This document shows positions 16,890 to 41,028 of a DNA stretch of 46,617 nucleotides, in pieces. Position numbers and translations under genes: made by a program. Each line of letters begins with the position of its first letter. Position 1 is the first letter of the stretch. Origin of the DNA: Syntrophobacteraceae bacterium (GTDB taxonomy: Bacteria > Desulfobacterota > Syntrophobacteria > Syntrophobacterales > Syntrophobacteraceae); NCBI GenBank assembly GCA_031292195.1, contig JARLHP010000027.1, forward strand, positions 1 to 46,617, written 5' to 3'. Under the pieces are notes generated by a model that worked only from the letters and a program-made list of their open reading frames with translations, made no database searches and was not told the origin of the DNA.

Positions 16890-16960
16890 GCGAGGAGCGG
16901 GGAGCGGGGAGCGGGCAAAAACTTTCTTTTTATTCCCGCTCCCCGCTCCTTGCTCCTCGC
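16890..16960. repeat. long hairpin between convergent genes (possible bidirectional terminator)
   Basis: Two 26-bp arms (16890-16915 and 16935-16960) are complementary except for two positions, and those can form G-U pairs in RNA. The arms are built of repeated GGGGAGC units and the loop is an A/T-rich 19 bases. The hairpin fills the gap between the transporter stop and the greA stop, where a shared terminator would be expected. T-rich tails are short on both sides. It belongs to the same family as 9157-9211 and 18691-18779. Confidence 0.7.
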
Positions 16961-18690: not shown

Positions 18691-18779
18691 CGAGGAAGCG
18701 GGGAGCAGGAAGCAAGAAGCGGGAAGAGGGCGGGAACTCAACTTTATTCCTGCTCCCCGCTCCCTGCTCCTCGCTTTTT
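18691..18779 (+). terminator. terminator-like hairpin between pyrB and pyrC
   Basis: AGCGGGGAGCAGG (18697-18709) pairs perfectly over 13 bp with CCTGCTCCCCGCT (18749-18761). The outer CGAGGA/TCCTCG adds six pairs across a 6-base bulge. Five Ts (18775-18779) follow the stem, the form of an intrinsic terminator on the plus strand. It lies between two genes of one pathway, 20 bp before the pyrC ATG, so partial termination would lower pyrC relative to pyrB. The stem belongs to the GGGGAGC repeat family. Confidence 0.6.
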
Positions 18780-27905: not shown

Positions 27906-28892
27906 CTAAACTCTAAACCGGCCCACCAGCGACCGGAGTTGTTCAGAAAGCTTGGAGAGTTCCAGGGCGCTTGCCTGAACATGCCCGCCGTCACTGCTTA
28001 TCTGGGTAATGGTGTCGTTAACCAGGGCGATGTCGGTAGCTATCGATTGTGACACCGTGGCGGTCTGGGCTATGCGTTCGTTGGAATCCTTAACGCTCGA
28101 TGAGGCTTCGGCGATGTTGGACGCTACGTCTTTAGTTACTGCGGCCTGCTCTTCGATAGCCACCGCGATGGTGGATACGATTTCACTCACCTGGTTTATC
28201 ACCTGTGCGATCTGCTCGATATCGTCGATAGCCCCGCCGGTGGATGCCTGAATGGAGGCGATCTTCCCCTTGATGTCTTCGGTGGCCGTAGCGGTCTGTT
28301 GGGCCAGCTCCTTTATCTCATTGGCCACCACGGCGAAGCCTTTACCCGCCGCACCAGCCCGGGCGGCTTCGATGGTCGCGTTCAAAGCCAGCAGGTTGGT
28401 CTGTGCCGAAATACTGGTGATGGTCTCCGTAACCTGACCGATTTCCTGCGCCGCTCTGCCCAGTTCCTTCATCATGCTGGTTATCGCACGGGCCTGCTCG
28501 GTCGCATCGCTGCTGATCGATCTGGCTTTCTCGGAGTTGGAAGCGATCTCTCCAATTGTGGCGCTCAGTTCTTCCGTAGCCCCCGCCACCGAGGTCAGGT
28601 TGCTTGTGGCCTGCTCCATGCTGTCCGAAACCGAATTGGTGTTGATGCTGGATTCTTCGGCTGCCGCCGCCACGGTTCTGGCTCTCTGCGATATCTCTTT
28701 TGTTCCCGAAGCCATTTGCCCCGAAATGGCGGAGAGTTCAGTGGAGGAGGCGGCCAGCATTTGCACTCCATTGTTACTATCGACCACCATACCGTGCATT
28801 TGTCCCCGCATTTCGTTTAGCGCCGTCGCAAGATCTCCGATCTCATCCCTTTGTGAAACCTGCAGGGTCTGAGTCATATCCCCTGCCGCCAT
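27906..28892 (-). pseudogene. C-terminal signalling half of a broken chemoreceptor
   Basis: This half holds the end of a HAMP domain and a full MCP signalling domain: [19 protein letters not shown], the hairpin tip [20 protein letters not shown] and a C-terminal [18 protein letters not shown]. It begins at an internal Met and is cut off from its sensor by a TAG at 28932-28934. The reading frame is the same as the upstream half, so suppression of the TAG would restore a full protein, though with a short out-of-frame linker. On its own it could be made only if a start exists in the interrupted linker; I see no ribosome-binding site there. The gene is likely inactive unless the change is a sequence error. 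Confidence 0.8.
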
Positions 28893-28931
28893 CGTTTTGG
28901 CAAAAACGACCCCTAGCCTTGCTAGGGTTGA

Positions 28932-29480
28932 CTATGCTGCGAGTGACAAGGAACGAAAAAGTGATTGCAAGGCGATGATTCCCACTGCGATCAGCAACGA
29001 TCGCAAATTTGAGTAGACTGAAGCGGCATTTTCATCTATTTGCCGCAACTTTTTTGCCCGAAGCTCGTTCATGGCGGTTAAGACCTCCATGCACATCCGT
29101 TTATAAGCTTGATTGGTGTACACGTCGATGGCCTTGGATTCATTACCTGCCATGGAAAGCTCTATGGCCTTATTATCCGCTTTTTTTACGCTGGCAATTG
29201 CCTCGTCAAACCTCGCCATCAATTCACGACCTTCAGGTGTTTTTGTCAACATCCTCAGGGTATTCAAATTGTTTTCATAAGCTACCATTATTTGAGCCAG
29301 ACTATCCTTGATTTCATTTTTTTGTGCAATATCCTTGTGCAGAAGGATAGCTGCTACGGTGCCCATGGCATCACGCACGTTGTCGTTAACACTAGCTGTT
29401 AGAGATTCCTTATTAGATTCTTCCGCTGTATCAATTCTAAGTTGGTTGATTGAATATATTCCCCAAAGCGCAAAAGCCAT
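28932..29480 (-). pseudogene. N-terminal sensor half of a broken chemoreceptor
   Basis: The half encodes a 4HB-type ligand-binding region (GIYSINQLRIDTAEESNKES through YTNQAYKRMCMEVLTAMNEL) and the second membrane helix LRSLLIAVGIIA. It then runs into LQSLFRSLSLAA and a TAG. Restoring one base after GIIA gives [15 protein letters not shown], the normal helix and HAMP start. Restoring two bases later rejoins the downstream half. The first membrane helix is also shortened: upstream of 29480 there is an in-frame TGA at 29493-29495. The gene has therefore lost its true N-terminus as well as its linker. Confidence 0.8.
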
Positions 29481-29485
29481 TATTA

Positions 29486-29580
29486 GATGACGTCATCGCG
29501 CATACGACGACCTTATCCCCATCGAGCCTGACAGGACTCCCGGTTACACCCACCGTCTTTGCCTTAGCGATGACGTCATC
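29486..29580. repeat. direct repeats of a 12-bp palindrome at the broken chemoreceptor 5' end
   Basis: The perfect palindrome GATGACGTCATC occurs at 29486-29497 and again at 29569-29580, start to start 83 bp apart. The first copy lies 6 bp from the truncated chemoreceptor start. The interval (29498-29568) has no recognised gene. The arrangement may be a scar of an insertion or deletion that removed the gene start, or a pair of protein-binding sites. Confidence 0.5.
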
Positions 29581-29665
29581 TCCGACGAGAGACTTCAACA
29601 CAACTTATCGGCAACCATTACGAGAAGCTTCAATAAAAAAGGGGACAGCCGGGTATCGTGAGCGT

Positions 29666-29754
29666 CAGCGGATCCACGAAGCACACGAAGGAGCACGAAG
29701 CAACAGCCCAAGTTCCGATCTTTCTTAGTGCTCCTTAGTGTGCTTAGTGGATAG
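29666..29754. repeat. 89-bp inverted-repeat element, copy 1
   Basis: The element has 29-bp arms (29672-29700 and 29724-29752) that match with three differences (ATCCACGAAGCACACGAAGG, then AGCACGAAG) around a core CAACAGCCCAAGTTCCGATC. A second copy at 40940-41028 has the same length and differs at four positions. Copy 1 overlaps the 3' end of the hybrid kinase gene: the kinase's last residues (STKHTKEH) and its stop codon come from this element. Confidence 0.75.
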
Positions 29755-32628
29755 AATTTCTTTTTTTACCGCCATTCCCAGTTTTTCCAACGAATAGGGC
29801 TTTTTGAGATACCCGCCGGCTCCCAGCTCCTGGGCTTTCTGTACCCGTCCTGTTTCAGCGAAACCGCTTACGATGATCGCTTTCTGACCAGGATGGATTT
29901 GGAGTATTTTGATGTAGGTATCCAGTCCGTCCATGCCGGGCGCCATGATCATATCCAAAACAATCAGGTCGACCGCCTGTGTTTTGAGGTACTCCACTGC
30001 CGCCTCTCCGCCGGACGCGCTCCGCACGCGGTAGTTGAGCTTTGTCAGCATGCGATCCGCCAACTCACGCTGAGCTTCCACATCATCGACCACCAGGATG
30101 GTCTGGCCATTGCCCATGTATTCGAGAACGGAGGAGGAAACCTGATTTTCCGCGACTTGCTTTCGCGTAATCGGAAAATAAAGGCTGAAGATAGTCCCTT
30201 TGCCCTCCTCGGTCTCGACGTTGATGTAGCCGCGGTGGTCTTTCACCGTACCCCAGACCACGGAGAGTCCCAGCCCCGTTCCGCTTTTCCCCATAACCTT
30301 TCTGGTATAAAAGGGTTCGAAGATGTGCTTCAGATCGGTAGGGGCTATCCCGTCACCCGTGTCCGAAACCGACAGCACAACATAGTCTCCTTCCCGGACC
30401 TCGTCGTATCCCGTGACCGGCCGGTCCAGATAGCGGTTCTCGGTTTTCACGGTCAAAACGCCCCCCCGGGGCATGGCTTCAGCAACATTGGAAACAAGGT
30501 TCATGAGCGTCTGGCCCAGGTGAACGTGGGAGCCTTCAATATTGAAGAGTTCCGGATCGAGACAGGTCTCCACCTTCACACCGGGATGGCTGGACAGAAG
30601 CCTTTCAAACACCAGTGTCTTTTGATAGTCTTCAACGACCCGGTTCAGATTGTATACCTCGACAACAGGGACGCCCCGCCTTGCCAGGGTCAACAAGTCC
30701 TGAACAATCGCGGCGGCTCTTTCGCCCGCCTGTTTGATATGCAAGGCATGAGATCTGGCCGGATTGGATGCCTCTATTTTATCGAAAAGCAGCTCCGAAT
30801 AACCGATCAGGATTCCCAAAACATTGTTGAGATCATGGGCCACCCCCCCCGCCAACATGCCCAGAGCCTCCATTTTCTCTGCCCGAAACAAACGCTCCTG
30901 GAGCATTGTTTCATTCGTTAAATCCTTGATTACTCCCTGATAACCGATTATGGCGCCGTCCTGGTCTTTTTTGGGAACCGCGGTGATGAGAGCATTGATG
31001 ATACTGCCATCCTTTTTTCGCAGGTTCACTCTATAGTCCTGGCTGAACCCCTTTTCCTTTATGATTGCGACGTGATTTTGCCTGTCCTGCCCGTTCTCAT
31101 AAAAATTTGCTATTCTAGTGGTGCGCAGTTCCTCTCCGTCCTGGTAGCCAAAGAGAACCACGGCGGCCTCGTTAAAATCTATCCATCGACCGTCCGTGGA
31201 AGTGATGAAGACGCAATCTCTCGATGTTTCAAAAAAGGTCTTATACTTTTCCCTGATTTTTTCCGCTTCTTCTTCCGCCCGCTTTCGTTCGGTGATGTCG
31301 CGGTTGGCGCCCCAATAACCAGCCACCTCCCCTTGAGCATCGAACAAAGGGGCCCCGGTGCATTCCAGAAAGACCTGATGTCCATTGCGGTGGAGGTGCT
31401 TGCAGGCGATACGAAAAAATGTCTCCTTCCTGTCGAAGTAACCTCTCATCTCTTGCACGATCCGCTCTTTTTCTTCCGGATCAAAGAACTCCCAGTGGAG
31501 TTTCCCGATTACTTCCGCGAGCTCATAACCCAGGATGCTTCTTACGGCCTGACTGGAATAGACGTACCGCCCCCTGCGGTCCACCTCCCATATCCACTCT
31601 TGGGAGTTCTCGCCCACCTGCTGAAACCGTTCTTCGCTCCTGCGCAGGACCTCGGCCGATTTCATGGTATGATAGGCCAGGCTGATGGGTATTATGAGTA
31701 AAAGCAGGACAACGACCGTCAAAATCACGCCAATCGACTCATAGATCGCAATCCTTCCCTGCGGAGCCAGGATCACGATCGACCACCCTTCCCGGTCGAC
31801 CTCCCGGCGCGAAGCCAGATACCATTTACCCTCCAGACGCACTTCCATCCCGTCGGTGACTTCCCTTGGCAGGAGAACTTCGAAGGGTCCGTTACCAAAC
31901 TGCCTGGAACCAATCAACTTATTGCGCTCACCGGGCTGCAGGGGCCAGAGGCTCTTTAAGAGCATCCCCGCTTTGCCGGAAAGAAAAATGATGCCCTGGG
32001 GACTGACGAAAAAACAATAGGACTGATGGCGAAATTGCGTTTGAAGTTGGTCGAGATCGGTCTTCATCACCATAACGCCCACAGGGGTGTTGGCAGGGCC
32101 GGTAACAGGACAACTGGCAAAAAGCCCTCTCTGCAGCGATGTAACCCCGAGGGCGAAATAATGCCCGCCATGGCCTCTTAGCGCCTCTGTGAAATAAGGG
32201 CGGAACTGGTAGCCTTTGCCGACGAAGCTGTCCGCTTCCCTGCGGTTGGAAGAGGCAACAGCGCGCCCGGTCTTATCCAGCAGATATGTCACGGAAGCAC
32301 TCAGAGCCTCGTTGTACCTGTCAAGAGTCGAGTTGGCGCGCTCAATATTTTCCTTCGTGGGGGCAGTCAGCGCCGGAGCGATCCAAGGCGAGAGGGAAAG
32401 CGATTTGACCACCCCTTCCATCTTTTTGACTTCATAGGTCAGGCGAGCGGCCAGGAGCATGGTTGTGGCATGGCTCTCCTTGATAATCTCGCGGCGGGCC
32501 TTGGCGCCCAGGTAGTCCGCCACACCCCATCCGGCAACGATGGTGAACGAGGAGATAATCAAACACCCCATCAGCCATCGCCGTCCCGGAAAGCTCATCC
32601 CTTGGAGTTTAAAGCGCATCGTCTTCAT
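29725..32628 (-). CDS. hybrid sensor histidine kinase (Cache-PAS-PAS-HisKA-HATPase-REC)
   Basis: The 967-residue protein has a membrane helix at about residues 15-40, a periplasmic Cache-like sensor (about 41-295; TYEVKKMEGVVKSLSLSPWI) and a second helix (about 297-320). Two PAS domains follow (about 335-455 and 460-575), then a kinase core with phosphoacceptor His 598 in GGVAHDLNNVLG, an ATPase with SDTGDGIAPTDLKHIFEPF and GTGLGLSVVWG, and a C-terminal receiver with Asp 892 in LIVLDMIMAPGMDG. It resembles two-component hybrids with unknown stimulus. No cognate regulator gene adjoins it. GAGG lies before the ATG at 32628. The last residues and stop come from an 89-bp repeat. Confidence 0.9.
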   Translation of the reverse strand: MKTMRFKLQGMSFPGRRWLMGCLIISSFTIVAGWGVADYLGAKARREIIKESHATTMLLAARLTYEVKKMEGVVKSLSLSPWIAPALTAPTKENIERANSTLDRYNEALSASVTYLLDKTGRAVASSNRREADSFVGKGYQFRPYFTEALRGHGGHYFALGVTSLQRGLFASCPVTGPANTPVGVMVMKTDLDQLQTQFRHQSYCFFVSPQGIIFLSGKAGMLLKSLWPLQPGERNKLIGSRQFGNGPFEVLLPREVTDGMEVRLEGKWYLASRREVDREGWSIVILAPQGRIAIYESIGVILTVVVLLLLIIPISLAYHTMKSAEVLRRSEERFQQVGENSQEWIWEVDRRGRYVYSSQAVRSILGYELAEVIGKLHWEFFDPEEKERIVQEMRGYFDRKETFFRIACKHLHRNGHQVFLECTGAPLFDAQGEVAGYWGANRDITERKRAEEEAEKIREKYKTFFETSRDCVFITSTDGRWIDFNEAAVVLFGYQDGEELRTTRIANFYENGQDRQNHVAIIKEKGFSQDYRVNLRKKDGSIINALITAVPKKDQDGAIIGYQGVIKDLTNETMLQERLFRAEKMEALGMLAGGVAHDLNNVLGILIGYSELLFDKIEASNPARSHALHIKQAGERAAAIVQDLLTLARRGVPVVEVYNLNRVVEDYQKTLVFERLLSSHPGVKVETCLDPELFNIEGSHVHLGQTLMNLVSNVAEAMPRGGVLTVKTENRYLDRPVTGYDEVREGDYVVLSVSDTGDGIAPTDLKHIFEPFYTRKVMGKSGTGLGLSVVWGTVKDHRGYINVETEEGKGTIFSLYFPITRKQVAENQVSSSVLEYMGNGQTILVVDDVEAQRELADRMLTKLNYRVRSASGGEAAVEYLKTQAVDLIVLDMIMAPGMDGLDTYIKILQIHPGQKAIIVSGFAETGRVQKAQELGAGGYLKKPYSLEKLGMAVKKEILSTKHTKEH

Positions 32629-32792
32629 GAGCCACCTCGTCGTGGTCCGCGCAAATTTCTTTTCTTTAAAAAAGCGAACAAGACTATCTCTCCGCAAAAA
32701 TTTTGTCACACCTGTCGGAAAATGTGTGCAGCTTTTTAGCGCATTTGAAGGGTGAAATCGACCCCCTCGCCACCACCACGGGGCAAGGAAGA

Positions 32793-32872
32793 CGATAGAG
32801 CGGGCGCCCAACGACCCGGGGCCTGCGCTCAGTCGCCGTTGGGCTTCGCTCTTGCCCCCCGCGCAACTATCG
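32793..32872. other. structured intergenic palindrome upstream of the first hybrid kinase
   Basis: Within the gap 32629-33119 (491 bp), CGATAG (32793-32798) pairs with CTATCG (32867-32872). An inner GCCCAACG (32806-32813) pairs with CGTTGGGC (32837-32844), and a further GAC/GTC pair extends the stem across a 2-base bulge. The fold is possible on either strand. It may be a miniature element or part of a 5' leader of the kinase gene. The other parts of the gap hold no gene or RNA that I recognise, and I saw no TPP riboswitch before thiM. Confidence 0.4.
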
Positions 32873-33119
32873 CCCTGCAAAATGTAAAGTTATAACAGCA
32901 AACTACGTGCCACCCAAAGGTTATTATCGAGGTTTATACTTCCCATGGATTCTACGACGGAGCGCACCCCACTTGCGCAGGCCGGGATGATGCTGCATAA
33001 TTGGTTCGCATCCGATAACCCGCGTCGTGCCTGTGCCCCCGGGCCGATGCCTTGAAATCGACTTTTGCAAAAATCCGGGCGGCAACCACTCAGGCCCCCG
33101 CTTTTCAATGGAGTGAGCC

Positions 33120-40898: not shown

Positions 40899-40939
40899 TA
40901 GCCCGGCGGCCTTCGCCCGGGCACCCAATCCCGGGGCGG

Positions 40940-41028
40940 CAGCGGATCCACGAAGCACACGAAGGAGCACGAAGCAACAGCCCAAGTTCTGATCTTCCTG
41001 AGTGCTCCTTAGTGTGCTTGGTGGATAG
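40940..41028. repeat. 89-bp inverted-repeat element, copy 2
   Basis: This copy begins 41 bp after the second hybrid kinase gene. It is the same length as the copy at 29666-29754 and has 85 of 89 bases identical. It has the same arms (ATCCACGAAGCACACGAAGG...) and the same core. Both copies lie at or just beyond the 3' end of a hybrid histidine kinase gene. The element has no coding capacity. Confidence 0.75.

Follow-up and report, generated by a model that had tools for sequence, protein, structure and literature searches.

A broken chemoreceptor gene with a possible replacement scar and a perfect inverted repeat behind a conserved sigma-28-like promoter

The described systems closest to the locus studied here are 5'-truncated chemoreceptor pseudogenes, short-patch double illegitimate recombination (SPDIR), bacterial miniature inverted-repeat elements, and fold-back mutations. 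We compared them with a chemoreceptor gene in a 46,617-nucleotide stretch of DNA (the window) from a Syntrophobacteraceae bacterium (assembly GCA_031292195.1, contig JARLHP010000027.1). Like 5'-truncated, out-of-frame chemoreceptor pseudogenes, the window gene has kept its promoter and lost its start and first membrane helix, and it shares with them an out-of-frame HAMP domain and a signalling half that is still readable. It differs from them in that the lost part was exchanged for a short unrelated stretch with a terminal inverted repeat. In SPDIR, a short resident stretch is swapped for short ectopic DNA; this short-for-short exchange resembles the scar in the window, although no donor was found for the latter. 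Miniature inverted-repeat elements are short units with perfect terminal inverted repeats, as is a 97-bp unit at the break (15/15 identical positions). In contrast to such elements, the 97-bp unit is single-copy, has no recognisable target duplication, and contains an arm that reads as coding. Fold-back or template-switch mutations at palindromes and quasipalindromes are described as occurring in E. coli (PMC7202029). They place a short perfect inverted copy beside a palindrome, as is seen for the copy at 29486 at the break. In the window, however, the repeat coincides with a larger replacement, and a fold-back is a proposed mechanism.

We give roughly even chances to a reading in which a replacement rearrangement scarred this chemoreceptor gene, now a pseudogene, with capture of a CheA fragment and a fold-back among its steps. 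If true, it would be a small, datable case of the death of a receptor gene, with the promoter kept, the start swapped for a scrap of a chemotaxis gene, and an inverted repeat at the joint. If this reading is right, a conspicuous pair of palindromes near a promoter can also be a coding sequence and its repair copy. Beyond the chemoreceptor locus, the scar matters little.

The chemoreceptor gene is on the minus strand and is readable in separate pieces. The truncated N-terminal piece (28932–29480) encodes a 4HB sensory domain with the first transmembrane helix cut (the match to Pfam 4HB_MCP_1 begins only at position 52 of the 181 in the profile). The C-terminal piece (27906–28892) encodes the remainder of HAMP, entering that profile at position 20, and the signalling domain. 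The TM2/HAMP stretch (28893–28990) is open in a frame differing from that of both neighbours, and the outer frame contains a TAG. When the N-terminal piece was compared with 11 genomes of the genus, its own included, a single good match was found in genome G010 (46%, E = 1.3e-42), along with a weak one in G003. The G010 MCP is 555 aa long, has no stops, contains 4HB, HAMP and signalling domains, and matches 4HB_MCP_1 from profile position 2. Its residues 29–555 match the window at 71% with one TAG inside; the C-terminal piece is 87% identical to it. An earlier note on this DNA had claimed that the N terminus of the chemoreceptor is lost and had proposed alignment with an intact orthologue. This alignment bore out the claim: similarity starts at 29477, corresponding to G010 residue 29, and the start of the chemoreceptor is lost. 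The window gene does not combine an entire 4HB domain, HAMP and the signalling domain in a single frame, as an intact MCP would.

The two halves of the gene differ from G010 to different degrees. Differences at codon positions 1, 2 and 3 amounted to 8.0, 5.5 and 45.3% in the C-terminal half (327 codons) and to 36, 28 and 57% in the N-terminal half (177 codons); for the neighbouring thiM gene, the values were 15, 14 and 49%. This pattern points to strong purifying selection on the signalling half until recently, and therefore the damage to the chemoreceptor looks recent. The gene has further lesions at TM2/HAMP, and in the scenario that we favour it is now a pseudogene, the protein sequence of its signalling half being still highly conserved.

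The junction, the frame changes or both could alternatively be errors of the metagenome assembly, which comprises 5,506,744 bases in 311 contigs and is 94.89% complete. The number of contigs and the clustering of the lesions in one gene would fit this explanation, and frame changes are a common assembly fault. We consider it quite unlikely, since gene order is conserved on both flanks over the contig, a 15-bp repeat is short for joining by an assembler, and nothing else in the assembly could have supplied the replacing DNA.

The order thiM-MCP1-MCP2 is common to the window, G010 and G009, which also share thiE, ubiD and panE as further neighbours (assigned by Pfam or similarity). G009 carries three tandem copies of MCP2 (L131, 1380–7628) versus one copy in the window and in G010. 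The G009 MCP1 (L131, 7658–9397) has kept the promoter and the signalling half and has a different sensory domain, which represents a domain exchange at this locus. Between thiM and MCP1, the window harbours a hybrid histidine kinase gene (29725–32880; dCache, PAS, HisKA, HATPase and receiver domains). In the corresponding stretches of G009 and G010, no counterpart was matched at E 1e-10, and the window alone has a kinase at this place.

By pattern search, we detected a sigma-28-like promoter of the chemoreceptor, ATTGAAGCTT-N12-GCCGATAA, at 29605–29634 on the minus strand. In 26 genomes of the family, the pattern ATTGAAGCTT-N12-GCCGAT was found at five sites: one each in the genome under study (G000), G009 and G010, and two in G011. 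In the first three genomes the spacer is always N12 and the site is located immediately upstream of the orthologous MCP. The putative promoter is conserved in these three genomes, in which the chemoreceptor locus was seen. Alignment of the promoter flank with the region upstream of the G010 gene was reached by none of 2,000 shuffles. The E. coli sigma-28 consensus is given as TAAAGTTT-n11-GCCGATAA (PMC2859248). Compared with it, the window promoter, TGAAGCTT-N12-GCCGATAA, has a perfect -10 element, 6 of 8 positions in the -35 element, and a spacer longer by one base.

Between this promoter and the break, 129 bp (29478–29606, minus strand) stand in place of 220 bp in G010, which consist of 136 bp of leader after the GCCGAT box and 28 codons. 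No similarity between 29485–29604 and the G010 upstream region was detected (390 of 2,000 shuffles scored equally well or better). The 20 to 25 bases directly behind the -10 box are a stretch too short to class, their matches to G010 and G009 being equalled by 18 to 19% of shuffles. A query of 361 bp around the site revealed no second copy of the replaced stretch in 59 genomes; it matched only a separate neighbouring hairpin repeat. An orthologue with the same N terminus and upstream region, which the earlier note had named as evidence against its reading, was sought; the two comparable loci, in G010 and G009, have the promoter in common with the window, but differ from it between the promoter and the break. 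This comparison indicates that unrelated DNA, with a palindrome as its distal end, has replaced the leader and the first 28 codons behind the conserved promoter, and to this extent the scar suggested in the earlier note stands. In the scenario that we favour, this part is observed directly: the promoter is still there, and 129 bp of unrelated DNA occupy the place of the lost leader and codons.

The palindrome GATGACGTCATC occurs in two exact copies, one at the break (29486–29497) and one nearer the promoter (29569–29580), with the 83 bp from start to start reported earlier. The first copy adjoins the break as claimed: position 29486 is 6 to 9 bp away from it, because the first ATG in the MCP frame is at 29480 and similarity to the orthologue begins at 29477. 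In 100 dinucleotide shuffles, there were 0 matches. With up to two mismatches allowed, the window contains six matches (1.56 expected), a number reached by one of 100 shuffles. Because of the perfect palindromy of the 12-mer, both a direct and an inverted reading of the repeat are possible. In the inverted sense, identity extends to 15 of 15 positions (AGATGACGTCATCGC at 29485–29499 and GCGATGACGTCATCT at 29567–29581, with 67 nt between), while in the direct sense it ends at 12. Among the 15 perfect 12-mer palindromes of the window, GATGACGTCATC alone recurs. A 12-mer is repeated within 200 bp at four places in the window, and three places contain a 15-bp inverted repeat that is perfect and encloses a loop of at most 200; thus, the repeat by itself is not extraordinary.

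The two arms delimit a unit of 97 bp (29485–29581) with the perfect 15-bp inverted repeat at both ends. DNA folding gave z values of -5.8 and -5.4 for the whole unit and of -0.5 and -0.3 for its 67-nt interior, showing that the predicted folding is due to the arms alone. As RNA, the inverted repeat would form a hairpin a few bases ahead of the first remaining ATG. Rfam yielded no riboswitch or structured-RNA match in the window at the gathering score. A riboswitch or structured-RNA leader was also considered and rejected: at E ≤ 5, the region 29300–29800 gave six weak matches, all of them in the separate hairpin repeat at 29670–29762. We find it barely credible that the locus was rebuilt and not broken. 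In that case, a flagellar promoter would have acquired a fragment of the chemotaxis kinase gene, the 15-bp hairpin would act as a control element in the leader, and an internal start would yield the conserved signalling half as a soluble receptor of its own. In the favoured reading, the inverted repeat would be without function.

Regulator-binding sites had been offered in the earlier note as a further explanation of the palindromes. As an operator pair for a dimeric regulator, 83 bp apart and just behind the promoter, they could serve looping repression; they are perfect 12-bp dyads about eight helical turns apart, and the -10 box precedes the start of one of them by about 25 bp. The genome does not bear this out, and we regard an operator pair as very improbable. 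Exact GATGACGTCATC is found four times in G000 (a control pattern, 0 times): the pair and one site each on contigs C144 and C299. Judged by reading, both additional sites are inside long open frames and not upstream of genes; the two genes presumably resemble CoA ligases. This search was for exact matches. Moreover, the pair is absent at the orthologous promoters of G009 and G010, the downstream gene is broken, and the literature matches for the 12-mer, among those listed, are eukaryotic or viral by title.

A search for pairs with 58 to 88 bp between the copies, covering 84,980 species by one genome each, yielded two stretches. In the first, the pair belongs to a translation-factor-like ORF with a partly duplicated 3' end, the second copy being located behind the stop; in the second, it is inside a repeat-protein ORF. 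Both pairs read D-D-V-I, which also argues against operators. Viral contigs contained no such pair. Further pairs in the genome, which the earlier note had suggested looking for, did not turn up: neither a further copy of the 15-bp arms nor another pair was found in the 94.9%-complete assembly, and the two pairs elsewhere are located in or at coding repeats. There is no family of such exact-match palindrome pairs in the collections searched.

The 97-bp unit could instead be a miniature mobile element, or what is left of an insertion sequence (its two ends) after an internal deletion, with an adjacent deletion following the insertion. On each side, the unit terminates precisely in the perfect 15-bp inverted repeat, with one arm at the break, and the unit is alien to both orthologous loci (G009 and G010). 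Since the bases from the -10 box to 29582 are too few to be classed as native or not, the repeat could mark the precise limits of the insert. Against these points, the unit is single-copy in G000, where the two arms are the only occurrences of the 15-mer within one mismatch. In 26 genomes of the family, 11 had a match to the 15-mer, and the pair was seen in none but the own genome (as two adjoining sites). A 121-bp query of G000 and 54 further genomes of the class revealed, among the matches listed, no second copy of the interior and nothing above chance length besides itself (best other match, 21 bp, E = 0.014). Phages and plasmids contained no similar stretch beyond matches of 24 to 25 bp at E 4. 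No target duplication was recognisable at the unit, although an adjacent deletion could have removed one. In addition, a coding-like reading resembling a receiver domain passes through one arm. A mobile element thus appears unlikely, and the part of the earlier note that invoked an inserted or removed element was not supported: in the genome, neither the arms nor the interior have another copy, and the coding-like reading crosses an arm.

This reading spans 33 codons (29503–29601, minus strand) that resemble positions 82–114 of a CheA receiver-domain profile (VLKSLVGDDVIAKAKTVGVTGSPVRLDGDKVVV) and are probably a decayed coding fragment. The minus-strand translation of the replaced stretch is VVLKSLVGDDVIAKAKTVGVTGSPVRLDGDKVVV. 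When this peptide was searched against 55 genomes of the class, 11 of them, its own included, gave matches at E 1 or better (best other, 0.005). A control with the reversed peptide gave 2 of 55 genomes (best E, 0.47). The best non-self matches (E 0.005 to 0.15), four of 12, correspond to the receiver-domain end of CheA ORFs. The CheA source ORF of the own genome has 1065 aa and contains Hpt, H-kinase_dim, HATPase_c, CheW and Response_reg domains.

The main CheA receiver profile was built from eight of nine receiver domains. When the 1175 six-frame stretches of the window were scanned with it, the fragment ranked directly behind three genuine receiver proteins, with E = 1.7e-4; the next match had E = 2.2. 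None of 5,000 shuffled peptides reached its score with this profile, nor did any of 3,000 dinucleotide-shuffled DNAs with any of three profiles. Among 395 newly drawn genomes of the phylum, 13, the own genome included, matched the fragment at E ≤ 0.05, and 10 of the 11 loci fetched from this search matched the CheA receiver profile. These E-values are flattered, because the receiver family was found by searching with the fragment, and once a peptide resembles a widespread family, repeated matches to that family are not independent. A less selected profile, from four homologues picked by their similarity to CheA and without regard to the fragment, gave E = 0.009 for the fragment, or 0.14 when only the portion within the 97-bp unit was scored. 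Pfam returned nothing for the fragment up to E 10, a search of PDB only a ribosomal protein (E 0.3), and no plasmid sequence matched the peptide up to E 10. By reading, the conserved Thr/Ser and Lys positions of receivers are changed in the fragment (LTS to LKS and IKLD to VRLD), which is to be expected in a decayed piece, but equally in a chance match. The receiver-like frame had the best coding score of the six, which was equalled by 179 of 2,000 shuffles (9%). One of the 11 loci (L093, E = 0.007) was not CheA and prompted DciA as a candidate source. This was rejected: a profile of 30 DciA sequences gave the fragment 0.7 bits, and 147 of 3,000 shuffles were as good in a best-frame test.

We consider an origin of the replaced stretch from a CheA receiver somewhat better supported than its opposite. 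The alternative that the stretch is rearranged noncoding filler, in which chance produced the receiver resemblance as well as the second palindrome copy, draws on the shortness of the peptide, the selected family, the modest E-values, and the four places in the window with 12-bp repeats within 200 bp. It seems improbable, given that 0 of 3,000 DNA shuffles matched the fragment and that only receiver proteins outscore it in the window.

With moderate support from the matches above, we propose that the incoming DNA is a fragment of a CheA-type receiver domain; no donor was found in this assembly. If the stretch is receiver-derived, the palindrome copy at 29569–29580 would be ordinary coding sequence, the plain codons for Asp-Asp-Val-Ile with similarity on both sides, and therefore the break copy alone would need explanation. 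A fold-back template switch would leave, at a junction, an inverted copy that matches a palindromic arm close by without mismatch. More tentatively, we propose that the copy at the break, which is an inverted copy of the other arm, was made in this way when the broken end was joined. The 15-bp repeat would then be inverted and perfect because fold-back copying made the break copy.

Other repeats were noticed in the course of the analysis. Further 15-bp inverted repeats without mismatch, along with a GGAGCGGGGAGC repeat, are located at positions 16893–16950 and 18697–18761 of the window. In a Williamsia sterculiae record (L016, 900–1200), the 3' end of a translation-factor-like gene is partly duplicated. 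A dispersed hairpin repeat with 32-bp arms is present at 29672–29752 and 40936–41028; it has 13 matches in the own genome, itself included, and four short matches in one other genome of the family (G018). Both window copies are located at the 3' ends of hybrid histidine kinase genes, and the last codons of the kinase gene at 29725–32880 (STKHTKEH) are inside one of them.
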